A stretch of 64,000 nucleotides of DNA, from IMG/VR virus record IMGVR_UViG_3300017971_000284, positions 1 to 64,000 of that record, one strand, 5' to 3'. Shown here piece by piece: positions 5,520-39,547 of this stretch (position 1 is its first letter; every line of letters begins with the position of its first letter). Both the position numbers and the translations under genes were made by a program. Source of the DNA: a virus. The notes below the pieces were generated by a model. It did not search any database and was not told the origin of the DNA. It worked only from the letters and a program-made list of their open reading frames with translations.

Positions 5520-5535
5520 TGTTTCACGTGAAACA
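5520..5535. promoter_or_regulatory. parS-like palindrome, site 1
   Basis: TGTTTCACGTGAAACA, an exact match to the consensus bacterial centromere parS bound by ParB/Spo0J. It overlaps the last base of the endolysin stop codon. Sites 1 and 3 share the downstream ATTTTTGG sequence. Confidence 0.7.
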
Positions 5536-5555
5536 TTTTTGGATACATTTCAATT

Positions 5556-6626
5556 ATGACCATCACAAACGGCAAAAAATTTTACTCGCTTGCAATAAGA
5601 TCAAGAAAAGATTCAAATAAAATTCTTTCTGACTCGCAAGCTGACATAAATCGATTAAACAATATAATAGATAAAAAAGCATCAACAGAATATATGAAAT
5701 TTTTGTCAGACTTGGAAAAAGACAAAGACAACAGGCTTGCAAATAAAAATTCAAATATCGCGAAAATAAACATATTTTTAAATAAAACCGAAGAGAAGGT
5801 GTTTAATCCGTACAAAAAAAAATATTCAAAAGTTTCTAATTCAACTGTCAGAGATGTTCTAAAGCAAGAGAAAAATTTTATAAAAAGCAGGAACAATCTT
5901 TTCGGATTAGAAAACAAAACGATAATCACAAAAGATTTGAATGCCAGGTTGTCAAATTTGAACAAAGCGTCATTTCAAAGAATAAATCAGACAATAAAAA
6001 AATGGCATGATTTTGCTTATGGTGTTTTTCTTAGAGGGATAACGCAACAACAAACAATTGATAAAATAATTGAGCAATTGTTGACTCAGTTTGGATCGAT
6101 TCGAATAGGTAGTTCATTCGGACAATCGACAGAAGCCGAAATGATCATAAATGCCGTATCGCAAAGAACTGCGTTTGTAATGGAAGATGCGAAGAAACAA
6201 AATTTGAAATGTTGTTGGAACGGTAATCCAATAGACAGAAGAACAAAACCGATATGCCTTGAAGCATCAATTGCAGGTGTTATCCCTGAAAAGCAAATGC
6301 TTGATACTTATGGGCCTCCTCCGAGATATATTTGCCGATGTGATTTGGTTTATACAAGATGCGAATGGAGCGATATAAACACAGGGATCAATCAGACAAT
6401 AGAAGAGAGAAGAATAAAATTAATTGATATATTGAAATCAGATCCGGATTCGTATCAGAAATCATCATGGTTTGCGAATATCAACGGGGAAAAGAAAAGA
6501 ATAATCCCGAATGATCCAACAAGAGCGGCCGGAAAATTACTGTATAAAAACATGGAAGAGATGATCGGATTGCTTGAATCAAATCCTGTTGATGAATACG
6601 AAATCCCAAATCCTGAATCAATATAA
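5556..6626 (+). CDS. Minor head / head morphogenesis protein (Mu gpF / SPP1 gp7-like)
   Basis: The 356-residue protein has the family's C-terminal signature: a conserved stretch NPIDRRTKPICLEA near residue 225, then GPPPRYICRCDLVYT, with paired Cys residues. Proteins of this family are internal minor head proteins that assist capsid assembly or DNA ejection near the portal. Position after portal and lysis genes and before scaffold and capsid fits. The N-terminal 150 residues are Lys/Asn-rich and helical. The start lies 21 bases after the parS-like site, and no strong Shine-Dalgarno is visible. Confidence 0.8.
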   Translation: MTITNGKKFYSLAIRSRKDSNKILSDSQADINRLNNIIDKKASTEYMKFLSDLEKDKDNRLANKNSNIAKINIFLNKTEEKVFNPYKKKYSKVSNSTVRDVLKQEKNFIKSRNNLFGLENKTIITKDLNARLSNLNKASFQRINQTIKKWHDFAYGVFLRGITQQQTIDKIIEQLLTQFGSIRIGSSFGQSTEAEMIINAVSQRTAFVMEDAKKQNLKCCWNGNPIDRRTKPICLEASIAGVIPEKQMLDTYGPPPRYICRCDLVYTRCEWSDINTGINQTIEERRIKLIDILKSDPDSYQKSSWFANINGEKKRIIPNDPTRAAGKLLYKNMEEMIGLLESNPVDEYEIPNPESI

Positions 6627-6682
6627 CTCCATACACCACTGCACATCTGTTTGAAAAATATAAAAAATAATAAACTTTTCTC

Positions 6683-6711
6683 TTGACAAATCCTTTTTTT
6701 GATATTATTAT
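6683..6711 (+). promoter_or_regulatory. Strong sigma-70-like promoter
   Basis: TTGACA (6683-6688), 17-bp spacer, TATTAT (6706-6711). It drives the single gene at 6760, which has its own terminator. Confidence 0.75.
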
Positions 6712-6759
6712 ATATTTAGAACATGGGGAAAAACAACAAAACTTAAAGGAGATTGAAAC

Positions 6760-7167
6760 ATGAAAGAAATCATCGAAGCCATTAAAAATTGGGAAAACTA
6801 CGAATTATGGCTTGATGACCCCACTTTGGTTGTCGCTATTCGTGGCGACCAAGTCTCCTTCAAAGTTGGTGAAAGGATTCCAGAATCGAAATCTCTTGAT
6901 TTTGATGGCTGGGATGAAATCGAATACGGATCGGATGAGTGGGAAAGTCTGGAATCCGTCGGAGGAACATGCGGATTCAAAATAGACCCAAAGGCTTTTC
7001 TTGAAAATCCGGAAGAGGAAATAGAAGCCTGCTACGATCAGGCAACGGACTTCGGTTATGATATTCATGTCATAGTCGGATGGAATTACGGAAGAAAAAG
7101 AGATATAGGGCCTGTTGCGGAAAACGAAATTATCGTAAATTCGGCAAAAGTCATTTATGCCGAATAA
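6760..7167 (+). CDS. Hypothetical acidic protein in an autonomous (moron-like) unit
   Basis: A 135-residue, very acidic, soluble protein with no recognised domain. It has its own strong host-type promoter (6683-6711), a good Shine-Dalgarno (AAAGGAGATTGAAAC) and its own terminator (7194-7225), between two structural genes. This layout is that of a moron, a gene expressed independently of the late programme, often in the lysogen or early in infection. High acidity could suggest a DNA-mimic or anti-host protein, but that is speculation. Confidence 0.65.
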   Translation: MKEIIEAIKNWENYELWLDDPTLVVAIRGDQVSFKVGERIPESKSLDFDGWDEIEYGSDEWESLESVGGTCGFKIDPKAFLENPEEEIEACYDQATDFGYDIHVIVGWNYGRKRDIGPVAENEIIVNSAKVIYAE

Positions 7168-7193
7168 AATAACAATACAAACTTAAATCCATT

Positions 7194-7225
7194 AACCCGC
7201 TTCAAATTAATGAAGCGGGTTTTTT
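7194..7225 (+). terminator. Intrinsic terminator
   Basis: AACCCGCTTCA (7194-7204) pairs with TGAAGCGGGTT (7211-7221), loop AATTAA, followed by a T-run. It closes the moron-like unit. Confidence 0.85.
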
Positions 7226-7263
7226 ATTTCTAATCCATCCAGGCTCAGCAAACAACCCCCTCT

Positions 7264-7305
7264 TTTAATTTTTAACTTTTTAATAAAATCCTTTTCTGTT
7301 ATCTT
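7264..7305 (+). promoter_or_regulatory. Phage promoter, copy A
   Basis: TTTTTA (7277-7282) inside the conserved context AATTTTTAACTTTTTA, 17-bp spacer ending TGT, -10 TATCTT (7300-7305). One of four copies with identical spacing. It drives scaffold, capsid and the genes behind them. Confidence 0.75.
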
Positions 7306-7355
7306 TTCCATAAATTATTACATTTTTGTCATTTTATACAGAAAGGGTAACTTTT

Positions 7356-8135
7356 ATGTCAGAAGAAAACAAAATGGATCAGGTATCCCAACAAACTGAA
7401 ACACAGGAAGAACCTAAATTTCAGCCTGCTAAAATTATTTTAAAACCAGAACAATCCAAAGAAAAAGAAGAGCCCAAGGTTTTCGATAAAGATTATGTTG
7501 AAAAACTTAGAAACGAAGCTGCCGAAAAACGAATCAGAGTAAAGCAAGCGGAAGAAAAGGCAAGTAAACTCGAAAAAGAATTGAATATAAAACTCAAAAC
7601 TTTTGACGAAATCCAAGAACAACTTTCTGAGCTTCAAAAAGAAAAAGAAGAACGTGATTTGGCCGGTGCATCAGATATCGAAAAACTCACAAGGCAACTT
7701 GAAAAACTTGCGAATCAGGTGAATGATTATAAAGGACAAATTGAGGAAAAAGATAAAATCGTAAGTCAACTATCCGAAAAGACAAAAATTCAGGATAGAA
7801 AAATTATGATCGACAGACTTGCCCAAGCTCAGGGAATTCAATTTGCCTCAAAATACGAGCGTGACGGATTTGTAAGAAATTTGCTTGAAAAAGATGATGA
7901 CGGAGAATTTATTCATAACGAAGAATCAATTGTTTATGAAATGAGCAAATTTAAAAAAACTCGTGTAAAAGTTCCGGAAACACCCGCTCCTGGGAATAAT
8001 AATAAAATGAGCGAAGTCCCGGATATTGACAGATTGAACACTTTATTGTCAAAAGACAGAGAAGAATTGACAGACAAAGAACTGAAAGAAATGGACGAAA
8101 TTTTGAATCGCATCGAGGAGAGACAAAAGAAATAA
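7356..8135 (+). CDS. Capsid scaffold protein
   Basis: A 259-residue Glu/Lys-rich protein dominated by predicted coiled coil (residues about 45-160, with phrases such as KASKLEKELN), directly upstream of the major capsid gene. This is the standard size, composition and place of a scaffold that directs procapsid assembly and is then lost. The frame is open from 7326, but GAAAGGGTAACTTTT precedes ATG 7356, which is chosen. It is the first gene after phage promoter A. Confidence 0.8.
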   Translation: MSEENKMDQVSQQTETQEEPKFQPAKIILKPEQSKEKEEPKVFDKDYVEKLRNEAAEKRIRVKQAEEKASKLEKELNIKLKTFDEIQEQLSELQKEKEERDLAGASDIEKLTRQLEKLANQVNDYKGQIEEKDKIVSQLSEKTKIQDRKIMIDRLAQAQGIQFASKYERDGFVRNLLEKDDDGEFIHNEESIVYEMSKFKKTRVKVPETPAPGNNNKMSEVPDIDRLNTLLSKDREELTDKELKEMDEILNRIEERQKK

Positions 8136-8227
8136 GGCTTGATGCCATTGCCTTCCCGAATTGATTGAAGGAATGCTGAAAAACTGACTCAAATCGAATT
8201 ATATATATGTTTGGGAGGTATTAAAAA

Positions 8228-9229
8228 ATGGCTTTTATGAATCTGACAACGACAACGGAATTCGCGAATCTTATTCCTGAAATTTGGGCGCGGAAGCTGT
8301 TTATGAAGGCTCAGGCGCTTCAATGGTGGCAGCGATTTGTGGGTAACGAAGGAAGTGGAATGCCTATTATCCGCAAAACAGAATTGCTTACAGAACCAGG
8401 CGATACCATTCGTGTTAACAGGCTTGTCGATCTTACGGGAACGGGGGTTACAGGCGAAAGTACACTTGTTGGGAACGAGGAACAAATCACTACTCAGCAG
8501 GTATCTGTTGTTCCGGAATGGATCAGGCACGGGGTTGCTTCGACGGGAAAAGCGAAAAAGCAAATTAATAATGACTTCAGACAGATGGCTATGACTTTGC
8601 TCGCCCGTTGGATTGCCGAAAAGCAGGACAAAGACAAATGGACAGCGGCGCAACAGACAGCGGCGGTAGGTTGGGAATCCGAAGCGATTGGGATTGTTTA
8701 CGGAGGCGATGCTACTTCTGTTGATACAATTGACAGTTCTGATGAATTCACAGCAGAAACAGTCCGAAAAACAGTTGCTCTTATGCGTGGCGACAATATT
8801 CATGGTATCTCTATTCCCGGATTGCCTGGCGAAGAATATTTTGTTTGTATGATTCATCCTTATCAGGCTTATAGCTTGAAACAAGATACGGAATGGATCA
8901 CAAATCATCGTGATTGTTCGGAACGTGGCAAAATGAATCCGATTTTTACCGGCGCTTTGGGTGAATTGGACGGTGCCGTAATTTACGAATCTACAAATTG
9001 CGGAAGAACTCAAAACGCCAATTCTCCGGCTGTTTATTATTCTCGTGCTGTTATGATCGGAGCCGAAGCAATTGCACACGGAGAAAACAAAGTTCTGACT
9101 TGGAACGAACAAACTCGGGATTATGGATTTGAACATGGTGTTGGGATTGAAATTGCTTATCAGGACAAAGTTCTTTGTGCAAAAGCAATTAAACAAATTG
9201 TAACATCTTCTGAGGCTCCGAACGCCTAA
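8228..9229 (+). CDS. Major capsid protein (N4 gp56-like family)
   Basis: The 333-residue protein resembles the N4-gp56 major capsid family. Near the N-terminus it has LIPEIWARKLFMKAQ. Next come GDTIRVNRL, a GTGVTGESTLVGNEEQ segment near residue 78, and a VPEWIRHGV strand. It would form the icosahedral shell. GGGAGGTATTAAAA gives a strong Shine-Dalgarno. A terminator and the second parS-like site follow. The upstream coiled-coil scaffold supports the call. Confidence 0.85.
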   Translation: MAFMNLTTTTEFANLIPEIWARKLFMKAQALQWWQRFVGNEGSGMPIIRKTELLTEPGDTIRVNRLVDLTGTGVTGESTLVGNEEQITTQQVSVVPEWIRHGVASTGKAKKQINNDFRQMAMTLLARWIAEKQDKDKWTAAQQTAAVGWESEAIGIVYGGDATSVDTIDSSDEFTAETVRKTVALMRGDNIHGISIPGLPGEEYFVCMIHPYQAYSLKQDTEWITNHRDCSERGKMNPIFTGALGELDGAVIYESTNCGRTQNANSPAVYYSRAVMIGAEAIAHGENKVLTWNEQTRDYGFEHGVGIEIAYQDKVLCAKAIKQIVTSSEAPNA

Positions 9230-9243
9230 TATTCTTTATTCTG

Positions 9244-9271
9244 GCGGGATTGAAACATATCCCGCTTTTTT
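9244..9271 (+). terminator. Intrinsic terminator after capsid gene
   Basis: GCGGGAT (9244-9250) pairs with ATCCCGC (9259-9265), loop TGAAACAT, then six T's. It would limit read-through into the glycosyltransferase island and raise the capsid share of the transcript. Confidence 0.85.
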
Positions 9272-9276
9272 AAAAT

Positions 9277-9292
9277 TGTTTCACGTGAAACA
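9277..9292. promoter_or_regulatory. parS-like palindrome, site 2
   Basis: TGTTTCACGTGAAACA exact. It is intergenic, 6 bases after the capsid terminator. Sites 2 and 4 share the longer string ATTGTTTCACGTGAAACATA. Confidence 0.7.
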
Positions 9293-9309
9293 TATCAGAA
9301 AGATAATTC

Positions 9310-9642
9310 ATGGAAAAACTGACTTATATAGGGAAAGAAGAAAAAGTTTTTATAATCAAGGGGCTAAGCGCATTAAGTGAATATAGAAAAATTGCATGCA
9401 CACCAAATTGCGTTTTTGTTTCCGGAAAAAATATCTCGCCAAACGCATTCAGATTATTGAAAAGAGAATACGGAAAATTTTTCGAATATGAACAATATCA
9501 ATTATCGCCGAAAGAAGCGTTTGAAGACAACATTACATCACTTATTGAAAAAACAAATTTGACCGAAAATGAAATTTCTGATATCCTTTCAAAATATATT
9601 ACAAAGAAAAAACCCGGAAGAAAGAAAGCATCTGAGAAGTGA
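9310..9642 (+). CDS. Hypothetical protein after capsid gene, 110 aa
   Basis: This soluble protein ends in a Lys/Arg-rich tail (KKKPGRKKASEK) of the kind seen in proteins that touch DNA or act as flexible linkers. Place and size would suit a head-completion or capsid-accessory protein, but no family was recognised. Its stop overlaps the GTG start of the next gene. Confidence 0.55.
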   Translation: MEKLTYIGKEEKVFIIKGLSALSEYRKIACTPNCVFVSGKNISPNAFRLLKREYGKFFEYEQYQLSPKEAFEDNITSLIEKTNLTENEISDILSKYITKKKPGRKKASEK

Positions 9643-10748
9643 AGGCAAGATATAGAAAATCCGGAACAAAAAGAGTAAGATTTTCAAAGCAAACGTATCA
9701 AATCACACCAGAGTGGGAACAAATCGATAACATAAATCTTTATCATTGGCTTACAAAACATCCGGATGTGTTTGATTGTGTTTGTCATTTTGATTATAAA
9801 TTGTTCCTTGGCATCGCGGATTATCTACGATTTGAAAACGGATTGATATTTTGTTCGGACAGATTTGTTACCAGAAAACTCGAAAAAATTCCTTTTGTAA
9901 TAAAACAAGCAGAAAGAGGCGACGGAACAAGAATTTATCGAATTGTAAATTATTCAGAGCAAAAACTTTCTGATTATCAAAATTTCGATACGACTGTAAA
10001 TACGCTTATATTCAGAAAACTCGGAGGGCTTGGTGATGTGATTATGACTTTCCCGGTTATTGAATATGCGAAAAAGAAAAATCCGAATTACAAAATCACT
10101 TATTCATGCCCTACTGAATTTCTGTGTCTTGCTGAAAATAATCCCTATATAGATACGCTTGTTCCATATTCTGACAATGTTACAAAAAAAAATTGGGATG
10201 TTGTGATTGATCTGACTCGGGATTGTATCAAATATGAAATGAAACATCAACCAAACGTATCTATGAATCGTTCAGAAGTATTTATGGATTCAGTCGGGTT
10301 TAATCCAAAAGAAACACCAAGACCAAAATTGTATTTGTCAGAAAAAGAATTGAATGATTTTTCAATGATCAATATCTGGGAATTTAAAAAAATTGCATTT
10401 ATCCTTGAATCAAATGCTCCGGTAAGATCTTGGGATAAAATTTATGAGTTAAGAAACAGATTACTGGAAGATAAAAACATTATTGGGTATGATGTGGCAA
10501 AATCAAAACCAAAAAATTACAAAGTCGGAAAATCAAATCCGTGGTTCAATAAATCATTAAGACAGGTAGCAAGTTTGTTAAATATATGTGATCTTGTCAT
10601 TGGTCCGGATACAGGCCCTATGCATATGGCGAGTGCTTTGAATGTTCCGACTTTGTGGTTGTTCACACATATCGATGGAAGTATAAGGATAAAAAATTAC
10701 GATCCTGATATAACACATTTTATTCAAGGAATGTGTGATTTTAAATGA
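9639..10748 (+). CDS. Glycosyltransferase family 9 (heptosyltransferase-like)
   Basis: The protein (369 aa, GTG start in a GTGA overlap) has the two GT9 landmarks: RKLGGLGDVIMTFPV near residue 126, the N-terminal Rossmann loop, and DLVIGPDTGPMHMASALNVP near residue 314, the nucleotide-sugar site. Family members add heptose or other sugars to lipopolysaccharide core. The first 120 residues are not part of the usual family and could be an acceptor-binding or virion-anchor domain. It heads an island of sugar and methyl transfer genes inside the structural operon, so the acceptor may be a virion protein, modified DNA or host surface glycan. Confidence 0.8.
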   Translation: MKARYRKSGTKRVRFSKQTYQITPEWEQIDNINLYHWLTKHPDVFDCVCHFDYKLFLGIADYLRFENGLIFCSDRFVTRKLEKIPFVIKQAERGDGTRIYRIVNYSEQKLSDYQNFDTTVNTLIFRKLGGLGDVIMTFPVIEYAKKKNPNYKITYSCPTEFLCLAENNPYIDTLVPYSDNVTKKNWDVVIDLTRDCIKYEMKHQPNVSMNRSEVFMDSVGFNPKETPRPKLYLSEKELNDFSMINIWEFKKIAFILESNAPVRSWDKIYELRNRLLEDKNIIGYDVAKSKPKNYKVGKSNPWFNKSLRQVASLLNICDLVIGPDTGPMHMASALNVPTLWLFTHIDGSIRIKNYDPDITHFIQGMCDFK

Positions 10749-12409
10749 AGCCATGCTGGTATAAAATTCATTGCTCAAACGGACAGCTTGAAAGAAGAAA
10801 AAATCCCGGATGCTCCCAATCGATATCCGTTGATGAAGTATTTGGAAAAACAGTTGATATTTTGTCAAAGCCAAATATTTCCTATTGTATTGTTTATGCC
10901 AACGATAAAAACATAAGAAAATGTCTTGAAAGAATAAAAGAACACAAAAGAAAAACAGATCAGGTTGTAGTAGCGAATAACGGATGTAAAACTTTTACAG
11001 AGCCAAACGTAAATCAATTATTCTCAAAAAACGAATACATTTATATAGAAAATAAAACAAATCTTGGTTGTATTCTTGCAAGAAATCAGACAATGAAAGC
11101 GGCTACGGGAATAACTTTGTTTATTCTCGATGATGATCAATTTATAAATTCTGATTCTCTCCATAAACTTCAATCAATTGAAGCCGATATCGTAGGAACA
11201 GAAGCGTGGTCGATGGATAGGTCCGGATACGCTTTTGATATTAAAGATAACAAAGGGCCGCTTGCATATGTAGGTGGTGGTGGGCTTATAGTAAAAAAGA
11301 AAATTGTCGAAACCATAGGCTATCTTGATGAAAATTATGCTCCGGCTTGGTTTTCCGATGCTGATTTTTGTTATAAGGCAAAGGGAAAAGGATATACAAT
11401 AGGATATCATCCAAATCCGAACATAGAACATTTGAAACATCAGACAGTAAATAATCAAAAAGATTTTGATAGTCAGGAGGCGTGGAGAAAATCACATAGA
11501 TATTTTTGTAATAAATGGCTGAATAAGAAAAAAACATTTAACATCAATCTTAATAAAAAACCAAAAATTAATATACTTATAGATTCCCCGGTTTGGTGTT
11601 GGAATACAAAATCAATAAACATAAAAAAATGGTTATCGGATGATTTTGATATCGATATAACTTTTGAATGGAACCAAAATGCAGATGTGTATTTTTCATA
11701 TGAAAGAAGATTACCAAATAGAAAGGCAAAATACATTACCGGAATAACAGCACATGTATATAACAATATTCCTAATTTTGAACAAATAATGAAAAATGCA
11801 AATGCCATTCATGCAAACAGTATATTGCTTTTTAATAAAATCAAATACTTGAATAATAATTGCCATTATGTTCCAAACGGAATAGATGAAAAACAATTTG
11901 AATTTTTTGAGCGGAATATAAAAGAGGAATTTACCGCTTGTTATGTTGGTAAAGATATTAAAAGAAAGGGGTTACGAGATATTATAATTCCGGCTTGTCA
12001 GAAAGCTGATGTAAAATTAAAAACACAGGTTGCGAAACATAACAGTACAAACCGGATAAATTATGAAGATATGCCAAAATTTTATCATGATATAGATTGT
12101 GTTGTGATAGCATCTGATTATGATGGAACTCCGAATTTTTTAATTGAGGGAGGTAGTATCGGGAGGACGTTTATTGGAAATAATATAGGAAATGTTCCTG
12201 AATTTTATATTGACGGTAATGAAAAAAATGGTATAATGATTTCAGACAAAAATAATGTAAATGAGTATGTTAAGGCATTAAAATATTTAAAAGAAAACAG
12301 AGAAGAATGCAGACAAATGGGAATCAAGGCAAGGGAAACAATCGAAAAATCATGGACGTGGAAAAATCAAGCCGAAAATTATCGAAAAATGTTTTGGTCT
12401 GTTGTTTGA
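10745..12409 (+). CDS. Bifunctional glycosyltransferase, GT2 plus GT4-like domains
   Basis: The N-terminal half is a GT-A fold, family 2-like domain: a TNLGCILARNQTM segment near residue 107, LFILDDDQF (metal-binding DxD-type) near residue 124 and AWFSDADFCYKAKGKGY near residue 203. The C-terminal half (from about residue 275) is GT-B, family 4/1-like, with HYVPNGIDEKQF, a KRKGL motif and SDYDGTPNFLIEGGSIG near residue 457. Such fusions add two sugars in sequence. The start overlaps the GT9 gene (ATGA). Probably cytoplasmic. Confidence 0.8.
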   Translation: MKPCWYKIHCSNGQLERRKNPGCSQSISVDEVFGKTVDILSKPNISYCIVYANDKNIRKCLERIKEHKRKTDQVVVANNGCKTFTEPNVNQLFSKNEYIYIENKTNLGCILARNQTMKAATGITLFILDDDQFINSDSLHKLQSIEADIVGTEAWSMDRSGYAFDIKDNKGPLAYVGGGGLIVKKKIVETIGYLDENYAPAWFSDADFCYKAKGKGYTIGYHPNPNIEHLKHQTVNNQKDFDSQEAWRKSHRYFCNKWLNKKKTFNINLNKKPKINILIDSPVWCWNTKSINIKKWLSDDFDIDITFEWNQNADVYFSYERRLPNRKAKYITGITAHVYNNIPNFEQIMKNANAIHANSILLFNKIKYLNNNCHYVPNGIDEKQFEFFERNIKEEFTACYVGKDIKRKGLRDIIIPACQKADVKLKTQVAKHNSTNRINYEDMPKFYHDIDCVVIASDYDGTPNFLIEGGSIGRTFIGNNIGNVPEFYIDGNEKNGIMISDKNNVNEYVKALKYLKENREECRQMGIKARETIEKSWTWKNQAENYRKMFWSVV

Positions 12410-12419
12410 AAGGTTTAAT

Positions 12420-13058
12420 ATGAAAACTTGCAAAGTTGACAAATGTTATAAAAAAAAATCTGTAAACGGATTTTGTAGACGACATTACGATCATATTCGC
12501 TTACATGGTAAAATACTAAAAAGAACAAGATTCGACCCTAATGATTTTATGTTTGAAGATAATATTTGTAAAATCCATCTCTATGATTATCATGGTAATA
12601 AAATAACAGAAGCAATCATTGATAAAGAAGATTATAAAAAAATTAAAAATCGAAAACGGCATATATCGAAAGGAGGATATGTTGTTGATAACAACAAAAT
12701 TATTTTATCAAGATTTCTTATAGATCTTAATGATAATAATTATTTTGTAGATCATATCAATATGAATGTTTTAGATAACAGAAAATGCAATCTGAGAATA
12801 TGTACAAATTCCAAAAACCAAATGAATAGAGGTAAACAAAATAATAATACTTCCGGGTTCAAAGGTGCCTCTTGGCATAAAATGCATAATAAATGGAGAT
12901 CGACAATCCAAAAAAACAGAAAACAAATCCATCTTGGTTATTTTAATACAAAAAACGAAGCTGCAAAAGCGTATAATGTAGCTGCTATTAAATATCATGA
13001 TGAATTTGCAAAATTGAATCAAATCATTAGGGCAAAAGATATAAAATTAGGAAAATAA
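12420..13058 (+). CDS. HNH homing endonuclease with AP2 DNA-binding domain
   Basis: The N-terminus has a zinc-ribbon-like set of Cys residues. The middle carries the HNH core: FVDHINMNVLDNRKCNLRI, with His, Asn and Asn residues in the expected places. The C-terminus has an AP2 domain (SGFKGASWHK, HLGYFNTKNEAAKAYNVAA). This is the common free-standing homing endonuclease layout of phages, which cuts a target lacking the insert and spreads by recombination. ATG 12420 follows GAAAGGTTTAAT. The frame also allows 12402. It interrupts the glycosyltransferase island and is probably selfish. Confidence 0.9.
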   Translation: MKTCKVDKCYKKKSVNGFCRRHYDHIRLHGKILKRTRFDPNDFMFEDNICKIHLYDYHGNKITEAIIDKEDYKKIKNRKRHISKGGYVVDNNKIILSRFLIDLNDNNYFVDHINMNVLDNRKCNLRICTNSKNQMNRGKQNNNTSGFKGASWHKMHNKWRSTIQKNRKQIHLGYFNTKNEAAKAYNVAAIKYHDEFAKLNQIIRAKDIKLGK

Positions 13059-13061
13059 ATC

Positions 13062-13637: not shown

Positions 13638-13642
13638 AATAA

Positions 13643-15043: not shown

Positions 15044-15062
15044 AAAATGAGAGGATAATAAA

Positions 15063-15867: not shown

Positions 15868-15871
15868 ACAA

Positions 15872-17108: not shown

Positions 17109-17252
17109 ATGAAAAATCCGACAAAAATATGCGTTTATTGCAAACATTGGATAAAATATTCTGATAATGGATATGCTGTAAGAAGATGTTTTTATACTTG
17201 GGATATAAAAATCTGGCGTGATTCATGTGAAAAATTTGAAAGAAAAGAATGA
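17109..17252 (+). CDS. Small Cys-rich protein, 47 aa
   Basis: CVYCKHWIKYSD, then a single Cys in RRCFYTWD and another in RDSCEKFERKE, a four-Cys pattern like other small phage zinc proteins (compare 47642-47800). It overlaps the next gene by four bases. Function unknown. Confidence 0.5.
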   Translation: MKNPTKICVYCKHWIKYSDNGYAVRRCFYTWDIKIWRDSCEKFERKE

Positions 17253-29968: not shown

Positions 29969-29973
29969 TCCAT

Positions 29974-30015: not shown

Positions 30016-30050
30016 TCCTTGTATAAATTACATTTTTGTAGGAAATTCAC

Positions 30051-33000
30051 ATGGCGATTGATCGAGAAGTAAAAATAATAATAAGCGCAGTCGACGATTA
30101 TAGTTCAACGCTTGAAAAATTTGGCGGGCTTTTGGGTGGAATCGGGACAGCAGCGGTAGAAGCACAGGCAGCAATAGCCGGATTTTCATTGGTGCTTGCA
30201 AATTTTACAATAGGTATCGGCCAAAGCGCTGTTCAAGCCGCAGCGGATTTCAACGATGCTATTTTTGATGTCAGTGCGGTAGTTGGCAAGGCGGGAGCAT
30301 CAACAGAAGAAATCGGAAACATTCTTGATCGTCTTGTTGCAAAATTTCCGGTAACTGGCGCACAAGCCGGACAAGCGCTTGAGTCAATTGCCCAATTCGG
30401 TTTCGGAGCAGCGGATCAGTTAGAAAATATTACCGATGCGGCAATTGAATTACAAATAGCTACAGGTACAGAATTAAATACAAGCGTATCAGCTTTAACT
30501 TCTACTCTTAGCCAATTCGGTCTTGAAGTAACGGAAGTATCAAGAGTCTCAAATGTACTCGCCGCAACACAATTTAATTCTGCTGCCAGCGTATCTGATT
30601 TAAGAGAAGCGTTAAAATTCGCAGGGCCAACAGCAAATTTGTTTAATATGGGTTTGGAAGAAACTGTCGCGACTTTGGCTTTATTAAGGAAACAAGGTCT
30701 CGATGCGTCTCAAACAGGAACTGTTTTCAGAGGTGCTCTTGTTGCACTGACAAAAGAAACAGAAAAAGGAACAACAGCACTTGCAAATTACGGCCTTACT
30801 TATAAAGATGTAAATCCGGCAACAAAAAACTCAATTGAAATATTAAATGCATTCAAAGGGCAAACAATATCGGCAACAGATGCTGTTGCGTTATTTGGCG
30901 TTGAAGCATCACAATTCGCAGGAATTATAAACAACGAATCACAAGCAATTAAAGAGTTAACAACAACAATAACAGGAACAAATTCCTCAACAGACGCAGC
31001 AAGACAGAAATCAGAAAAGTGGAGCATAGTCCTTAATAATCTCGGCGGAACACTTGACGTATTTAAAAAAACGATAGGTGAAGAGTTACTTCCTGTTTTG
31101 ATAGAATTTGTTGGAAAAGATGAAAACTCCGGAATAAGAGGTGTTATAAGCCAATTGCTTGAACTTGAAAAATCAGGCAGAGGGATAGGCGGTCCTCTTG
31201 TAGAAGCATTTAACGCATTAAGACAAGCAGCACAGGAAGTATTTGACCAAGCGTTTCAAGGAAATATACAAAACGTTTACAAATTTCTTTCAGACATATC
31301 AACAATTCTGAGCCAAAATATCCAAATAATGATAAATTTGGGAGCCGAATTTGTAAAAGGCTTTGTTGATTCGACTTCGGGAGGTGAAAGACTCGAAGGA
31401 ATACTAAAAATAATAAATACGTCGCTGACTTCAATTGCTCTTATAGTTGCAACAGTTCATGATGCGTTTACGGGTTGGTATACCGCAGCAACACTTGGAG
31501 TTACAGAGCTTCAGGTTATTTTTAACGAATTTTTAAGAGATGCGAACAAATATATCCTCGATCTGCAAGAAGGGCTTAACACACTTCCTTTTGTTGATCT
31601 GCAAGAAGAAATAGCGGCAACTACACAAAGAATACAAGAATACGGGAAAAAAGCGGCAGAAGGCAATGCAGAAATCGCAAACAGAGAGCCGATTGATTTA
31701 TGGGTTGATAATGTTTTAAAGGCGTCCGTTGAAAACATACATGCCATAGAACAAGTTGCGGAAAAAGCAGATAGTGTTATAAGCAATCTTCCACCTGCCG
31801 AAATAAAAGTCGATTCGGATCAGGCAATAGCGGATTTTGAAGAATACGGTGAAATCTCCCGCCTTATACTTGAAGAAGAAGCAAGGATAGTAGAAAAAGT
31901 CGGGGAAAAAATAGTAGAATCAAATAAAAGAACTCTTGAAACGATTAACAAAGAGCAAAAAAAATCTCTTGAATTAAGAAAAGAAACATATAAAGGAGCA
32001 ACAGACGAAATAAACGAACTCGAAAAAAGCGGAGTTATAAGCGCGGAAGAAGCAAATCAAAGAAAAGCCGAAGCCCAGGAAGAATATAATTCAAGTTCGA
32101 TAGAAGCAGCACAAGCAAGAGTTGATACATTAAAAGAATTTTATTCCGAAGATATAGAAAATTTTAAATCAAAAACCGGTGAAAAAACACAGGCAGAAAA
32201 AGACGAAAATGCCAAAATAATCGAAGTAATAAAAAATGCCGAGGCCGAAGTAACAAGACTAAAGCAACAAGCAGAAGAAGACAGAAAGAAAAATCTTGAA
32301 ACAAGGCTAACAGATATAGAAAACTCATTAGAAAAAGAAAAAATATTATATGAACAAAATATAGCAGATATAAATCTTCTTGAGGCTGAAGGAAGAATTG
32401 ACGAAGAAGAGTCTCTGCAAAAACGTCTTGAAGCTCAGGAAACATATTTAAATGATAAAATAAGCAAAACGCAAGAAGCCTATGATATCATAAAAGAAAA
32501 TTATCCGGAAGATGTTGAAAGACAAAAAGAGGCATATCAGGCAGTAAAAGACGTACAAAGAGAGTTTACAGAATTTAAAATACAAAAAATAGAAGAAGAA
32601 AGAGAAGCATTAAAAAGTAGTCTGGAAGAAGAAATTTCAATAAGACAAGCAAACTACGAAATCGCAACTGTCGAAATAGAAAAACAAGAAGCGCGCGGAG
32701 TTATCAGTGTTGAAAATGCGACAAATCAAAAACGTGCAATAGAAGAAGATTTTCTTAATTTTAAAATACAAAAATTAAGCGAAAGTATACAACTTGCCGC
32801 ATCACAATATGGGCAGGATAGCGAAGAATATGCAAATGCCGTACTCGCAAAAAAACAAGCCGAACTCGAATTAATAGAAGTAAAGCAGGCGGTAAAAGAA
32901 AAAACAGACGAAGTAACAAGCGCCGAAAAGGAAGCAGCCTCAGCCTCAAGCGAATTATCAAGACAAACAACAAGTGATTTTCAAGTAGCTGGCGAAAAAC

Positions 33001-34817
33001 TTGAAATGCTTTTTGATCGAGCAACAAACATGAGGCAAGCATGGCAGATCCCGGTAGCTTTTTTTGTAGACATTGATCCGGCAACACAGAGCCTTAATGA
33101 TCTGAATCTTTTGCTTGATAATGCAAGAATCAACGTAGCAGAATTTGCCGGATCATATAGTCAAAGATCAATAGCGAGTGCGGCAAAAAATGACATGGAA
33201 GCAATAAAAGCACTTCAACAGCAATTTCAATCAATAACTGTTGAAGCCGCTAATTTCGGGCTTAAGGTCGATGTACTTGATCAGACGCTTGAAGAAGCCG
33301 CAGCGGATGTTGAAGCAAGAATCGAAGGGTGGACAAACTTCAAAGATACGCTTACTGGTTTGTCAGGTGAAATATCAATCCTAACAGAAGATTATGGAAA
33401 TTTCACATCATCCGTAGATGAATCGGCAACGCAAGCAGCCGATTCTTTTAACGACATAGTTGATAGTGCTTCGAAACTACAGGAAGGAATTAAACAAGTA
33501 AACGAAGCGTTTGGTTCTGGAAACATAGAAGCCGCTGAAAAAATGGCTGACGGAGTAATAGGCGCATATGAAGAAATTTACGATCAGGCTACGGATATTC
33601 TTGATGATCTGAAATCCGAATGGCAAAGTTTGGCTGACGAAATTGATAAAATTAATGGGAAAATCGTCGATATTCAGCAAACTACTGAAGAAAAAATAAG
33701 AGAAGCCAGACGCGAAACAATGACTGAACTTGAGCAATTCCAAGATATTCGACTTGAATACGACGAAGTTTATGCCCAAGCTCAGCAAGAAAGTGCAAAA
33801 GGAAATTTTGAAGCAGCAGCAGAATTGTATGAAAAAGCAGCCGATCTTGCCGGAGAATTACAGACAGAAATAAAAGACGAATCAGGTGAAGTAGTAAAAT
33901 CACTTGAACAAAATACAACGCTCTCAATCGATCTTATGCAAAAAGCAAGCGATGCGGCTGTAAGCGTACTTCAAAATCAAAACGATTCTCTTATTTCACA
34001 ACAAAGTCTCGTAGAAGATCAAATAAAAAATACAACAGATGTGATAGGCGGACTCGGTAATCAAATAGATTCGGCTTTTAGCGGAATAGCTGACAGATCA
34101 AAAGATATTGTGAACATAGGAAATCAAATAGGAAGTTCATTCTCAAGCATAAATAATCAAATAGGCGGAATGACATCTTCGTTTATGAGACTCTCCGATT
34201 TGGTAAAACAAACAAGTCAATACAACATTGATTTTACAGGGACAGGCTCAAGCAAACTCCCGCTTTCTGAAAAAATAGCGGAAATACAGGGAAAAGTAAT
34301 CGGATTCGCAGATAAAACAAGCGGATTGAAACCAAAAATAGAAGCTGATTTTAGCAATGTTACGAGCGGGATAGGAACAATAATTAAAAGCATTGAGGAT
34401 TTTCCTTCAATGCAAGATACATTTGGAGAATTATCAGTATCGCCGATACAGCCTATTATTCCCGAAGAAGATGGAGAAACAACAGAGGGTTTGTCATCTG
34501 CGATAGAAGAAGGCATCGGTAGGCTTTTAACAACAGGAGGGCTTGGACAGGCTGCGGGTTTTGATACGGAAATAGGAGGGGCTGCGACACGCGATGCCCT
34601 CCAATCATTGATAGAATCAAATAGTTATCTTTTAGAAAGTCAGGAAAAATTAACAGATGCAATAAGGCAATTCGGATTCCCGGAAAGATTTGTTTTTAAT
34701 GTCGAAGTTAATTCAAACGGGGAGGAATGGCTAAGAGGGTTGACAAAATCATTAATTGATCAAATTTTCGTTGAAGCCGAAGCGGAACAATTCAATGTAT
34801 TCGGGCAAGAAGGATAA
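30051..34817 (+). CDS. Tail tape measure protein
   Basis: At 1588 residues this is by far the largest gene. The N-terminal 300 residues carry the TP901-type tape measure core: AAADFNDAIFDVSAVVGKAG, EIGNILDRLVAKFPVTGAQA, ALREALKFAGPTANLF-like and LRKQGLDASQTGTVFRGALV. The middle (about 560-1000) is long Glu/Lys/Ala coiled coil with repeated phrases such as NELEKSGVISAEEANQRK and KQEARGVISVENATNQKR. Using about 1.5 A per residue, the tail would be of the order of 240 nm. It has its own promoter (copy C) and TTGTAGGAAATTCAC upstream. Confidence 0.92.
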   Translation: MAIDREVKIIISAVDDYSSTLEKFGGLLGGIGTAAVEAQAAIAGFSLVLANFTIGIGQSAVQAAADFNDAIFDVSAVVGKAGASTEEIGNILDRLVAKFPVTGAQAGQALESIAQFGFGAADQLENITDAAIELQIATGTELNTSVSALTSTLSQFGLEVTEVSRVSNVLAATQFNSAASVSDLREALKFAGPTANLFNMGLEETVATLALLRKQGLDASQTGTVFRGALVALTKETEKGTTALANYGLTYKDVNPATKNSIEILNAFKGQTISATDAVALFGVEASQFAGIINNESQAIKELTTTITGTNSSTDAARQKSEKWSIVLNNLGGTLDVFKKTIGEELLPVLIEFVGKDENSGIRGVISQLLELEKSGRGIGGPLVEAFNALRQAAQEVFDQAFQGNIQNVYKFLSDISTILSQNIQIMINLGAEFVKGFVDSTSGGERLEGILKIINTSLTSIALIVATVHDAFTGWYTAATLGVTELQVIFNEFLRDANKYILDLQEGLNTLPFVDLQEEIAATTQRIQEYGKKAAEGNAEIANREPIDLWVDNVLKASVENIHAIEQVAEKADSVISNLPPAEIKVDSDQAIADFEEYGEISRLILEEEARIVEKVGEKIVESNKRTLETINKEQKKSLELRKETYKGATDEINELEKSGVISAEEANQRKAEAQEEYNSSSIEAAQARVDTLKEFYSEDIENFKSKTGEKTQAEKDENAKIIEVIKNAEAEVTRLKQQAEEDRKKNLETRLTDIENSLEKEKILYEQNIADINLLEAEGRIDEEESLQKRLEAQETYLNDKISKTQEAYDIIKENYPEDVERQKEAYQAVKDVQREFTEFKIQKIEEEREALKSSLEEEISIRQANYEIATVEIEKQEARGVISVENATNQKRAIEEDFLNFKIQKLSESIQLAASQYGQDSEEYANAVLAKKQAELELIEVKQAVKEKTDEVTSAEKEAASASSELSRQTTSDFQVAGEKLEMLFDRATNMRQAWQIPVAFFVDIDPATQSLNDLNLLLDNARINVAEFAGSYSQRSIASAAKNDMEAIKALQQQFQSITVEAANFGLKVDVLDQTLEEAAADVEARIEGWTNFKDTLTGLSGEISILTEDYGNFTSSVDESATQAADSFNDIVDSASKLQEGIKQVNEAFGSGNIEAAEKMADGVIGAYEEIYDQATDILDDLKSEWQSLADEIDKINGKIVDIQQTTEEKIREARRETMTELEQFQDIRLEYDEVYAQAQQESAKGNFEAAAELYEKAADLAGELQTEIKDESGEVVKSLEQNTTLSIDLMQKASDAAVSVLQNQNDSLISQQSLVEDQIKNTTDVIGGLGNQIDSAFSGIADRSKDIVNIGNQIGSSFSSINNQIGGMTSSFMRLSDLVKQTSQYNIDFTGTGSSKLPLSEKIAEIQGKVIGFADKTSGLKPKIEADFSNVTSGIGTIIKSIEDFPSMQDTFGELSVSPIQPIIPEEDGETTEGLSSAIEEGIGRLLTTGGLGQAAGFDTEIGGAATRDALQSLIESNSYLLESQEKLTDAIRQFGFPERFVFNVEVNSNGEEWLRGLTKSLIDQIFVEAEAEQFNVFGQEG

Positions 34818-34819
34818 AA

Positions 34820-35209
34820 ATGAAAGCCTCGATAAATAGCAAATATTACAGAACAGCCGGAAATTCAATAAATTTTGATATTGATGAGCCAACTTTTAAA
34901 AGAATAGGTCAAAAAAAAATAGCAGAAGTCACATATCTTAACGGCGATATTGTTTGGGCTGTATGGGATTATAACAACAAAGGAACAAAAATAGAAGTAT
35001 CGAATATAAGGTTATCACAAGATGATTACAATTTGCTTGCGGAAATGAAAGAAGACAACACGTATTTGGAATATTTTTTCAATTATGTTGACAAAACATG
35101 GCCTGTTTATATTACAGATGTACAAAAAAGCGGGAATGAATACGGAAAAACATATACGGCTATTCAAATGCTTGTAACAGGCGATTCAATTGATATGGAG
35201 ACTGCATAA
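34820..35209 (+). CDS. Hypothetical tail protein, 129 aa
   Basis: This soluble beta-rich protein (NSINFDIDEPTFKRIGQK, AVWDYNNKGTKIEVSNIRL) follows the tape measure and precedes tail-tip genes, the slot of minor or distal tail proteins. The stop and the next start overlap by one base. No family recognised. Confidence 0.6.
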   Translation: MKASINSKYYRTAGNSINFDIDEPTFKRIGQKKIAEVTYLNGDIVWAVWDYNNKGTKIEVSNIRLSQDDYNLLAEMKEDNTYLEYFFNYVDKTWPVYITDVQKSGNEYGKTYTAIQMLVTGDSIDMETA

Positions 35210-35460
35210 TGTTTGATTTTAATCTGATTTTTTATAAAAACGATAAAGAAGGATTGATACTAAATTTTCTAAATTTTTACTTCAATAATTCTATGAAATG
35301 CTTATTCGGAATTCAGACATATAATGAAGATAATTATAAAAATATTACTATTGAATTATTTTTTAACAAATTCAATTATGAAAAAACGAATGTTTCACGT
35401 GAAACATTTTTGGGATACAAAAAATTTGATATAAACGGATTTGAAATAGGGAGAATATAA
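35209..35460 (+). CDS. Hypothetical protein carrying an internal parS-like site, 83 aa
   Basis: An aromatic- and Asn-rich protein (FDFNLIFYKNDKEGLILNFL). The sequence TNVSRETFLG near residue 61 is encoded by the third parS-like palindrome, so the site is embedded in coding sequence. One-base overlap with both neighbours. No family recognised. Confidence 0.5.
   Translation: MFDFNLIFYKNDKEGLILNFLNFYFNNSMKCLFGIQTYNEDNYKNITIELFFNKFNYEKTNVSRETFLGYKKFDINGFEIGRI
35391..35406. promoter_or_regulatory. parS-like palindrome, site 3
   Basis: TGTTTCACGTGAAACA exact, inside the coding sequence of the 83-residue protein (codons for VSRETF). It is followed by TTTTTGGGATACA, close to the TTTTTGGATACA after site 1. 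Confidence 0.7.
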
Positions 35461-35900
35461 TGGCTACGGTTCAAATCCCACAAAACGCGGCTCTGTTATT
35501 GGCCACAAAAGAAATAGATTGGGATAATGATACATTCAAATTAATATTATGTAGCAATTTCACTTTTGATGTTGATAATGATATTGAATATTCTGACGTT
35601 TCAGGAAATGAACTTTCAACAGGAAACGGATACACAGCCGGAGGAGAGACGATGTCCGGTGGTTCCGTTGCTGTTGATGACGCAAATAATCTCGCCAAAA
35701 GAACGTTTAATAATGTGACAATAACAGCATCGGGCGGTAACATAGGGCCTTACAGAGTCGTAATTATTTACAACGATACAGTCACAAACGATCCTATTAT
35801 GTCAGCAATAACGTATGATAGTGATCAAACAATTTTAGATGGAGATTCGGCAGTTTTTGAGAGCATAGTTGCAAAATTCGAAACGCCGGATTCAACTTAG
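35460..35900 (+). CDS. Putative virion structural protein, 146 aa
   Basis: MATVQIPQNAALLLATKEIDW, a KLILCSNFTFDV strand and a Gly-rich loop (GNGYTAGGETMSGGSVAV) match a beta-sandwich pattern common in small phage structural proteins near tail-tip genes. The C-terminal FESIVAKFETPD is also typical. It may be a decoration or baseplate-associated protein. Confidence 0.6.
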   Translation: MATVQIPQNAALLLATKEIDWDNDTFKLILCSNFTFDVDNDIEYSDVSGNELSTGNGYTAGGETMSGGSVAVDDANNLAKRTFNNVTITASGGNIGPYRVVIIYNDTVTNDPIMSAITYDSDQTILDGDSAVFESIVAKFETPDST

Positions 35901-35911
35901 GAGAAAAGTAA

Positions 35912-36514
35912 ATGGCTGAAAGAAGTTCAACAATAGCAGATGGAAGTAGAATAGCCACACGCGATGCCAATGTTGACGATGCGGACACGAATGCCCGTGA
36001 TGTCCAGTATTTTGATGCGACTTGTAAATATCATGGCCTTGATTTTGATACGGTCAATAGAACTGTGTCATCCGATGATGATCTTCAGTTTAGCACAATT
36101 CCATCAGGTATATTAAGTAATGCGATAACAATCGGAGAAGCCACAACTTTTACATGCATTGTTCAATATTATTGTACCGGATCGACAGTCGGCAATGTCA
36201 TAGTAACGCCAATAGTGATAGATAGCGGAGATGATGCATTAGGGTTTCTTGAACCAAAAGTATTTTCCGGATTCGCACCTCCGGGAGCAGCAAGCGCATT
36301 GTATACAACAGGAAATTACACACTGTGTATGGTGCAAACGTGGTCTGTCAAAGGCGGAGCCAAAATAGGGGTGCATGTCACACTTACAGGCGGAGTTACA
36401 AGCGCGGATATCTGGTATGCCGCAACAACGGGTGCGATAGATGAATGGATATCCGATTCGACACCATCCGGTAGCGGATCATGGGAAGCATACCAAGCTG
36501 GTGGCGGAGAGTAA
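35912..36514 (+). CDS. Putative virion structural protein, 200 aa
   Basis: A Gly/Ser/Thr-rich beta protein with a hydrophilic N-terminus (ERSSTIADGSRIATRDAN) and a C-terminal Ser/Gly linker (STPSGSGSWEAYQAGGGE). GGAGAAAAGTAA precedes the start. Placement among tail-tip genes suggests a minor tail or fibre-like component. No family recognised. Confidence 0.55.
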   Translation: MAERSSTIADGSRIATRDANVDDADTNARDVQYFDATCKYHGLDFDTVNRTVSSDDDLQFSTIPSGILSNAITIGEATTFTCIVQYYCTGSTVGNVIVTPIVIDSGDDALGFLEPKVFSGFAPPGAASALYTTGNYTLCMVQTWSVKGGAKIGVHVTLTGGVTSADIWYAATTGAIDEWISDSTPSGSGSWEAYQAGGGE

Positions 36515-36517
36515 TAA

Positions 36518-37807
36518 ATGTCTCTGACGCTCCTATTTGGTGGCCAAGGTCATCAATTCCCGATCACGCTCAATTTTGAAATTTCAAGATCGTATCATTA
36601 TGGTTCCGTAGATTTGCCATATAGCATAAATCTTGTTGCGTTGCCTATTCCGGGAATAATCCCAGGCGAAGTTGTGGTTGATCCGGGAATAATACCTACT
36701 CCAAGCGATATAATAAAGCCAAAAGCATATGTAATGTGGAGAGATTATGACCCGGATGTGGGCGTTTATCAATGGCAATATCTTTCTACAGCATACGCTT
36801 TTAATATTTCTAATTCCAAAAGTAATGTCATAGGTAGTTTTAGCGTAACAATTGACAAGGCTGAGTTATATAATTCAAGAGTGTGGGTTTCCGGACATTT
36901 GGATGATTATGGAATACTCGGACCACACAGATATAAAAGATTGCAAATTTATTATTCATCAAACAATGGAATTTCTTATGAATTATTGTTTGAAGGGTTT
37001 GCGAACAGAAAACCGGAAACATATTCTTTCGGAGGGAATAATTATATAACGTTATCAGGAACATCTATTGCAACAGAGATGAATACCGTGTATTTTGAAT
37101 CATACGAAGATGCCACAGGATCAAAATATTCCGGAAACGCAGATGGAATTCTAAATTATTATCTTGCAAAAATATTTGGAGGAAGAGACATAATAAGCGG
37201 TAGTTATTACGTAAACACAAACTCACTTTATGATTGGACAGAACAAGATTTTGCGTATAAAACAGCTCTTGCCGCAGTAAACGATATAGTCAAAATTGTT
37301 GGAACGCAATTATGGCATTACATGGATTATTCAGGAGGAGTTACAAATTATTTTGTGGGAAACAGACCTTCTGATTTTCTAACATCGCTTTCGTATAATG
37401 ATTCACAAATAATAAGCTTCGAAACAGATGATGTACTTGGAATAACAACAAGATGTGAGGTAATAGGTGTAGACGAAAATGCAAGTACATATCAGGAAGC
37501 AGTTGGTGATTATACAAATAAGCATGGAATAAACAATTTGACAATATCATCCGGGCTTATAAAAAATTTAACAGAGGCAGCGCGGTTGGCTTCAAATATT
37601 ATTTCAGATGCGCAAGAAATGGAAAAAAATTTTAAAATAACAACAATTTTAAATTCTGATATAGGAATAAGGAAGTTTGTCACAATAAACTCAACCGAAG
37701 CGACTTTGGCAGCAACAGGATGTCCAATATATGAATATCAACATTCCTATCAATATGGATCCATGCCGACAACAACATTTAGCGCATATATCGGAAAAGA
37801 GTCGTGA
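36518..37807 (+). CDS. Baseplate hub / tail-tip protein-like
   Basis: The 429-residue protein has a Pro-rich N-terminal segment (LPIPGIIPGEVVVDPGIIPT), a hub-like core (FNISNSKSNVIGSFSVTIDK, HRYKRLQIYYSSN, LLFEGFANRKPETYSFGG) and IISFETDDVLGITTRCEVIG. This succession resembles phage late-control/hub proteins that sit at the end of the tail tube. The stop overlaps the GTG of the next gene. Confidence 0.6.
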   Translation: MSLTLLFGGQGHQFPITLNFEISRSYHYGSVDLPYSINLVALPIPGIIPGEVVVDPGIIPTPSDIIKPKAYVMWRDYDPDVGVYQWQYLSTAYAFNISNSKSNVIGSFSVTIDKAELYNSRVWVSGHLDDYGILGPHRYKRLQIYYSSNNGISYELLFEGFANRKPETYSFGGNNYITLSGTSIATEMNTVYFESYEDATGSKYSGNADGILNYYLAKIFGGRDIISGSYYVNTNSLYDWTEQDFAYKTALAAVNDIVKIVGTQLWHYMDYSGGVTNYFVGNRPSDFLTSLSYNDSQIISFETDDVLGITTRCEVIGVDENASTYQEAVGDYTNKHGINNLTISSGLIKNLTEAARLASNIISDAQEMEKNFKITTILNSDIGIRKFVTINSTEATLAATGCPIYEYQHSYQYGSMPTTTFSAYIGKES

Positions 37808-38928
37808 GTCGCGGTGTAATAACAAATATTGATGATGCGGAAAATAATAATTATATCGTAAATGTTCCTGATATCGGCGAAACTTCGGCACAATGCGTCA
37901 CAAAAGATGAAATTCTTTTGGGCACCGAAGTAAGAATCGCAGATATTGACAACGAACCGCCTGTTGTCAACAAAGGACACGGGAATCTAAGATTCCTACC
38001 GAATACACATACGGGCCAGGAAGAAGAAAATATCCCTGTTTACACATATTCAACAAATTCTGTGTGGAAAAAACCAAAAGAATTATGGGAAACAAACAAC
38101 AAACATCAGCTTGTCAAGGGGTACATCCTGTCATCTGAAAGAAACAGGCGTTGGCAAAAAGAATATCCGTTATACAAAAAAGGTAAAGTTGCTTCGATCA
38201 CAGATGCCGAATATATGGAAGTAGAAATATACGGGGATTCTACAAGATCATGCAAAGCACAATATATGCAATGCGATACGGCAGCATTTGAAGCAGATGA
38301 CATAGTAGTTGTTTTTTATGAATATGGGAGTTATGAAAGACCGGTTGTCGTAGGTTTTTGGGATGAGCCTGTTGATTGTTTATATTGGGCAACATATATT
38401 CAGTTATATATGTATTATCTCATACCAGGACAACCAACGGTTATCTGCTGTCCAATTCGTGATGGAGCAAGTTTCTATATTAACAATATAGAATTTAATA
38501 CGGATTCCGGATGGGTTTCAAGATTCACTCCAGATTATTGGAATGACGGAGGGAGTTTTTATGCAAAATGGGAAACATCAAATCAAAGATATCTGACATA
38601 TCCGACTTTTGGCAATTATTGCAATCAAAATTGGACTGGCGAAAGCGTGATTGAGCATACACAATGGCTAAACGAAAACAGACCATCGCAATTAAGAATC
38701 AATTGGACAAATAATTATAATTGTCCGGAAAAATTAGGGATGATCTTTAGCGTTTACTCATTTACATCAGAATATGTTTATGATACTTTTTATGATTTTG
38801 ATGATTATACGTATTCGGGTTCTTGCGATAACGGATATACATCAAATACAATTCTTAATCTTGATTGGGCAGGAATCCCGAATTTTAATAATGCCGCAAT
38901 TGACTGGGGCGAACCATGGGAAACTTAA
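37804..38928 (+). CDS. Tail-tip protein with OB-like N-terminal domain
   Basis: The GTG start is in a GTGA overlap. Residues 1-55 (GVITNIDDAENNNYIVNVPD) and 125-195 (KKGKVASITDAEYMEVEIYG, then DDIVVVFYEYGSYERPVVVG) look like two OB-type modules of baseplate spike or hub proteins. The last third is Trp/Tyr/Asn-rich and may bind sugar or a receptor. Function inferred from context and fold-like patterns. Confidence 0.5.
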   Translation: MSRGVITNIDDAENNNYIVNVPDIGETSAQCVTKDEILLGTEVRIADIDNEPPVVNKGHGNLRFLPNTHTGQEEENIPVYTYSTNSVWKKPKELWETNNKHQLVKGYILSSERNRRWQKEYPLYKKGKVASITDAEYMEVEIYGDSTRSCKAQYMQCDTAAFEADDIVVVFYEYGSYERPVVVGFWDEPVDCLYWATYIQLYMYYLIPGQPTVICCPIRDGASFYINNIEFNTDSGWVSRFTPDYWNDGGSFYAKWETSNQRYLTYPTFGNYCNQNWTGESVIEHTQWLNENRPSQLRINWTNNYNCPEKLGMIFSVYSFTSEYVYDTFYDFDDYTYSGSCDNGYTSNTILNLDWAGIPNFNNAAIDWGEPWET

Positions 38929-38941
38929 GAAAGAATATAAA

Positions 38942-39547
38942 TTGCAAGACATTTTAATATATGACTGCGAGACAAGGAACAAAGGGACGTTTAAAGATCC
39001 CCAAAATACGATGGGGTTTTTGTGCGGATGCATTTACAGTTATAATCGCGATACCTATTTTATATTTGACAATTCTTCAGAGCTTATAAGAGCATTGAAT
39101 GGAAACATATGTGCTTCATTTAACGGAATTAATTTTGACACTCGGCTTTTACTTGGAAACAATAGAAAATATCGCTTGAATTTCCCGTATTTCAAAATTG
39201 TTTCACGTGAAACATATTGGCTTGAATATGATATATTTTTAATTGTCTTATCATCATTTTATGGTATAAAGTTATCTGAATCTGTTAAAAAAAAATCTCC
39301 AGGCGGATTAAATTTAAATGATTTATGCAAAATGACCCTCAATAAACAAAAAATCAGTATAAATTTCAACACATCGAATTTTATTGAAACAATTGAATAT
39401 TGTTTGCACGACATCCGAATCACAAGAAAATTATTCGAATTCTTTATAAAAAACGGATATTTACGCTCGCCGAAACAAGGGAAAATCAGAATTCCTTTGA
39501 AATATCGTGAAAATATCAAAAACAATCCGTCATTTCTTAGAAAATAA
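38942..39547 (+). CDS. DEDDy-type 3'-5' exonuclease-like protein
   Basis: ILIYDCETRNKG gives the D-x-E pair of motif I, FNGINFDTRLL the motif II Asp, and YCLHDIRITRKL the Y-x3-D of motif III, so all four acidic positions plus the DEDDy Tyr are present. It probably trims DNA or RNA or proofreads. TTG 38942 with AAGAAAG upstream is the best start; ATG 38891 in frame lacks a ribosome-binding site. The fourth parS-like site is inside the gene (IVSRETYW). It is the last gene of the tail block. Confidence 0.65.
   Translation: MQDILIYDCETRNKGTFKDPQNTMGFLCGCIYSYNRDTYFIFDNSSELIRALNGNICASFNGINFDTRLLLGNNRKYRLNFPYFKIVSRETYWLEYDIFLIVLSSFYGIKLSESVKKKSPGGLNLNDLCKMTLNKQKISINFNTSNFIETIEYCLHDIRITRKLFEFFIKNGYLRSPKQGKIRIPLKYRENIKNNPSFLRK
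39199..39214. promoter_or_regulatory. parS-like palindrome, site 4
   Basis: TGTTTCACGTGAAACA exact, inside the exonuclease gene and read as VSRET. It lies 3808 bp from site 3, close to the 3757 bp between sites 1 and 2. Confidence 0.7.

Follow-up and report, generated by a model that had tools for sequence, protein, structure and literature searches.

Among phages that carry a centromere on their genome, P1 has genes for both ParA and ParB and uses a parS different from the one described here. The parS sites of chromosomal ParABS systems conform to a 16-bp consensus, and PMC10197239 searched for parS with this pattern, tolerating two mismatches. Spo0J, the ParB protein of B. subtilis, was reported to take part in the trapping of the virulent phi29 genome in spores (PMC9437464, citing Meijer et al. 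2005). Phages with CtrA sites, discussed together with lytic deferment in PMC9437464, similarly bear the sites of a host DNA-binding protein without its gene, but these are transcription factor sites at promoters and not centromeres. ParB-parS is among the best understood bacterial DNA-loading machines, and phi29 was the sole published case of host-type parS in a ParB-less phage that we found in the literature, which was covered in part and without preprints. The phage described here adds to this known but under-appreciated kind, for which phi29 is the precedent, one that the first-pass annotation did not bring up. Its sites share the exact 16-bp consensus with those of chromosomal ParABS systems, from which they differ in being located on a phage, without parA or parB, and over 34 kb.

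The DNA analysed was a window of 64,000 nucleotides (the whole stretch studied), contained in an IMG/VR record of 69,473 bp (G000). In line with the first-pass annotation, TGTTTCACGTGAAACA, the chromosomal-type parS consensus, was found as four exact copies in this window, at positions 5520-5535, 9277-9292, 35391-35406 and 39199-39214, and the best remaining match had three mismatches. G000 contained the same four sites alone at up to one mismatch. As to copies beyond the window, a point raised by the first-pass annotation, a second contig identical to G000 and longer (IMGVR_UViG_3300028840_005080, 87,412 bp; G001) again harbored these four and, with up to two mismatches allowed, no others, nor did the degenerate pattern TGTTNCACGTGNAACA add any. 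Exact occurrences expected by chance in 87.4 kb amounted to 2.5e-5 when calculated from base frequencies and to 3.4e-5 with a first-order Markov model, which bears out the earlier statement that four chance copies are not credible. An origin by chance or assembly artefact, for which the sporadic occurrence of the sites among phages is the sole argument, can practically be dismissed, given that it is refuted by the count, that the four sites recur in the second contig listed and that structural phage genes surround them.

The record belongs to a tailed phage, as judged by its portal (3259..4710, plus strand), major head and tape measure (30051..34817, plus strand) proteins, and the gene for the terminase large subunit, which only G001 covers, has minus-strand orientation. 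A replication module on the plus strand (48009..63311) comprises genes for an O-like initiator, an RNA ligase, a DnaB-like helicase, a clamp-like processivity factor, DNA polymerase III alpha, a clamp-loader-like AAA protein, a gp32-like SSB, a UvsX-like recombinase and a 5'-3' exonuclease. Within this region, the polymerase III alpha (54870-58190) has a uracil-DNA glycosylase domain fused at its C terminus, and a pentapeptide-repeat protein with DUF5758 is encoded at 52475-53302; a perfect 20-bp palindrome, GATAATAAAATTTTATTATC, was also noticed at 41904-41923, in a SNF2-type helicase gene. No RNA family was matched. Searches for close relatives with the capsid, exonuclease and terminase proteins returned only the identical contig or terminase relatives at 32-53%, the latter having almost nothing else in common with the phage. 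The genomes in which terminase relatives reside (Hyphomicrobiaceae and Streptomyces, 41-43%) proved uninformative about the host.

Profile searches for ParB (ParB_N, PF02195; HTH_ParB, PF17762) and ParA (AAA_31, PF13614) gave no match in either G000 or G001, while control genomes responded, with the proviso that a very divergent ParB can escape a profile search and that the contigs may be incomplete. The absence of ParA and ParB from the window, claimed in the first-pass annotation, can in these terms be extended to 87 kb. The phage therefore resembles P1 in bearing a centromere on its genome but differs from it in that neither a ParA nor a ParB gene of its own, as in a self-contained P1-type ParABS system, was found. 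Furthermore, the tyrosine integrase of an integrating temperate phage (Phage_integrase, PF00589) had no match in the 87-kb contig, again with positive controls.

With regard to their surroundings, sites 1 and 2 are intergenic, and sites 3 and 4 are located inside open reading frames. The first base of site 1 (5520..5535), whose palindrome reaches 20 bp (AATG...CATT), directly follows the stop codon of a plus-strand gene (4983..5519), and the next gene (5556..6626, plus strand) shows a weak match to Mu F-like head morphogenesis proteins. Downstream of the major head protein gene (8228..9229, plus strand; PHROG 334, 3.3e-49) comes a terminator-like hairpin, with site 2 (9277..9292) immediately 3' of it and then a plus-strand gene (9310..9642) for which no family match was found. 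Site 3 (35391..35406), with a palindrome also reaching 20 bp, lies within an 83-aa ORF (35209..35460, plus strand) for which no homologue was found, and site 4 (39199..39214) within a 201-aa ORF of DnaQ-like exonuclease type (38942..39547, plus strand), which has a probable TTG start and a weak match to the PHROG 17 DNA polymerase in an exonuclease-like region. Both sites are translated as VSRET, as had been noted in the first pass; this reading is not special, since only two frames of the 16-mer are open, giving VSRET or FHVKH/Q, as the IMG/VR sites also showed.

The gene preceding site 1 encodes a PHROG 3108 protein, whose homologues are annotated as endolysin or lytic transglycosylase, and its product has an N-terminal signal-peptide-like stretch that is absent from the aligned relatives. 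In an otherwise unrelated contig (L069), the only parS is located where a homologue of this gene, 44% identical, ends. A general linkage between PHROG 3108 and parS was nonetheless rejected: although this site occupies the same gene end, the homologue was the only one with a site among the 79 others, and 50 carriers of the family yielded one exact site, the one already known, and one with a single mismatch. Since it is the sole case among these homologues, the gene-end site of L069 may be a coincidence aided by the preference of such sites for gene ends.

The four sites form two pairs, with spacings of 3757 bp (sites 1 and 2) and 3808 bp (sites 3 and 4), exactly as given in the first-pass annotation. 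The flanks shared between sites 1 and 3 and between sites 2 and 4 were likewise real, extending over 31 bp at 97% and 39 bp at 90%, respectively. When only the 8 nt on either side were considered, identity was 10/16 for sites 1 and 3 and 11/16 for sites 2 and 4, compared with an average of 5.2 between unrelated parS pairs taken from AT-rich contigs, for which the 99th percentile was 10. The suggestion that a pair had been duplicated did not hold, however, because comparison of the 3.8-kb stretches at both the DNA and the protein level gave no convincing similarity outside the sites; there is accordingly no evidence of segmental duplication, only the 31-39 bp around the sites being alike. Regarding the even spacing, the outer intervals of four random sites agree within 51 bp with a P of approximately 0.002, a value computed for a pattern noticed after the fact. 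Intervals in other multi-site phages ranged from 19 bp to more than 100 kb, and a common 3.8-kb spacing was rejected; the case for even spacing as a matter of design is therefore weak despite the P value. A contig with two sites 3805 bp apart (L059/G002), which had the look of a relative by its spacing, was also discarded as such, with only a helicase at 25% in common. Taken together, even spacing and shared flanks constitute a real, mildly significant and unexplained pattern.

In phi29 (EU771092.1), four copies of TGTTTCACGTGGAACA, one base off the consensus, were located at 10445, 15903, 17243 and 18760. The phage studied here likewise has four parS-type sites with no detectable ParB of its own, the arrangement that characterizes the phi29-type use of Spo0J, and the ParB_N profile had no match in the phi29 relatives searched (B103, Athos and Chedec 11). 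The phi29 site at 17243 and site 1 of our phage both begin on the base directly after a stop codon. TGTTTCACGTGGAACA matches a natural parS variant of B. subtilis. In gene 15 of the phi29-like phages, the site falls within a variable linker, at an equal offset (446) in B103, BSP11 and Chedec 11, and its six codons are all identical between B103 and Chedec 11, whereas gene-wide only 54% of the identical residues share their codon; phi29, PZA and Goe6 keep this site with one base changed. A second site, near 10.1-10.5 kb, is kept in B103, BSP11, phi29, PZA and Goe6. The codon identity in a diverged gene is indicative of selection at the DNA level in these phages. By contrast with phi29, our phage is of unrelated ancestry, is about 87 kb in size, is of the portal and tape measure tailed type, has its own Pol III-type replisome and carries the exact consensus instead of the TGTTCCACGTGAAACA variant.

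A survey of annotated phage records revealed that the site recurs in many unrelated phages. The exact 16-mer was present in 286 of 50,697 records (412 sites, or 824 strand-wise places), while the palindrome read backwards, used as a control, was present in none of the 50,697. Site-bearing groups included phages of Listeria, Microbacterium, Arthrobacter, Gordonia, Bacillus, Lactobacillus and Enterococcus as well as inoviruses and microviruses, and those of Vibrio (host Vibrio cholerae), Ruegeria, Butyrivibrio and Clavibacter were also among the records listed. No enterobacterial phage was among the records listed, 28 records being under names not displayed. The ParB_N profile had no match in 37 of the 42 site-bearing records searched, two of which correspond to this phage. 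Presence is nevertheless sporadic: at up to one mismatch, no site was seen in any of 50 distant terminase relatives, and nearly all PHROG 3108 neighbours were devoid of one. In several other phages the sites are clustered, as opposed to the 34-kb dispersal found here.

Placement was analyzed in 120 IMG/VR contigs, at least that number being known to carry the site. In general, the sites avoid genes and often start 0-2 nt from a stop codon, site 1 being an example. ORFs of at least 100 aa held 48% of the first sites of these contigs, compared with 80% of the TCANNTGA matched controls (Fisher P=2e-9), and positions 0-2 nt after a stop codon accounted for 6.3% of the oriented sites versus 0.5% of the controls, with several of the former supplied by a single contig, L091. 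In this 116.7-kb contig (IMGVR_UViG_3300037518_000322, 65% GC), parS-type sites directly follow the stop codons of successive small genes, and several ORFs consequently start with MFHVKH. The 5.9-kb inovirus bajarodino virus 6 (PQ006149.1) was found to contain six exact parS sites, and ParB_N had no match in it.

These results suggest that the four 16-mers are probably functional parS elements, kept by selection at the DNA level, which would recruit the chromosomal ParB (Spo0J) of the host. Host ParB capture ranks first among the readings because the sites are of parS type and non-random and the phage has no detectable ParA or ParB. Specifically, we infer that host ParB would bind each of the phage sites, load as a CTP-dependent sliding clamp and spread over the adjacent phage DNA, and that a genome loaded in this way would resemble the host origin region to the ParA/SMC segregation machinery, with which it might interact. 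The most likely use would be the positioning of phage genomes, or their co-segregation with the nucleoid of the host, during delayed lysis or cell division, in analogy to the Spo0J-dependent entrapment of phi29; partition in a carrier state, ParB titration and SMC loading would follow in this order as possible benefits. Of the readings put forward in the first-pass annotation, host ParB capture gained support from the survey (286 records against 0), from the 37 of 42 records without ParB_N and from the constraint in phi29-like phages, whereas the phage-plasmid role lost ground.

In the latter role, a dormant extrachromosomal phage would be segregated by the ParABS system of the host, for which parS alone would suffice where the host has ParA and ParB, and the lack of an integrase match would fit such a state. 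We nevertheless regard it as unlikely, the role being less supported because no integrase was found and the phage has its own replication genes, which form a module typical of lytic phages, and because strictly virulent phages carry parS as well (phi29 and P100 are well-known virulent examples); no plasmid maintenance genes were identified. The presence of sites in virulent phages would also suit a decoy function, in which the limited ParB of the host would be titrated by numerous replicating phage genomes, each with four parS, and the resulting disturbance of chromosome segregation, of replication control or of SMC loading would benefit the phage. Several sites per genome do occur in this and other phages, with a maximum of six in the 5.9-kb inovirus, but many phages, among them P100, Quhwah and CMP1, have a single one, and the sole experimental case, phi29, favours entrapment over titration (PMC9437464), which makes a decoy quite improbable.

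A comparably low likelihood is assigned to condensin loading, whereby ParB at the phage parS would load host SMC and organize or separate phage DNA for replication or packaging. In bacteria, SMC-ScpAB is recruited at parS (PMC10197239), and sites 1 and 2 are located among the head genes, while the other two follow the tape measure gene, but site positions differ from phage to phage. Finally, the palindromes could bind a phage-encoded protein, as proposed in the first pass, or be terminators or hairpins that match parS by accident. Some phage ORFs remain without assignment, and in RNA, sites 1 and 3 can fold into a hairpin with a U-rich sequence behind it; however, sites 3 and 4 fall within ORFs, the hairpin strength of site 4 is ordinary (z -0.58), neither ParB_N nor HTH_ParB was matched, and unrelated phages share the identical 16-mer. 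A protein of the phage's own with the same site is hence not favoured, hairpins are possible but not sufficient to account for the sites, and we hold this explanation as a whole to be very improbable.

Returning to host ParB capture, whether it is widespread, with independent origins in numerous virulent and small phages, works outside sporulation and involves a role of ParB spreading or SMC loading in the infection cycle appears to us an evenly balanced question. The phages concerned would be the Listeria P100 group, the phi29 group, Lactobacillus and Gordonia phages, inoviruses, microviruses and this orphan phage. If real, the chromosome segregation system would be a routine phage resource, for which the survey supplies tractable test phages (phi29, P100, Woes and phi 3). 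It also calls for caution, as both phage and prophage DNA will give signals in parS searches and in ParB ChIP data. Woes and Orchid (L145 and L344), which belong to two Gordonia phage genera with one host strain, each carry two sites close to the right end, and over the 3 kb compared, the DNA similarity found was confined to parS and a few flanking bases, a further sign of selection. Three of these four sites are embedded in longer inverted repeats (28-30 nt), which perhaps double as terminators.
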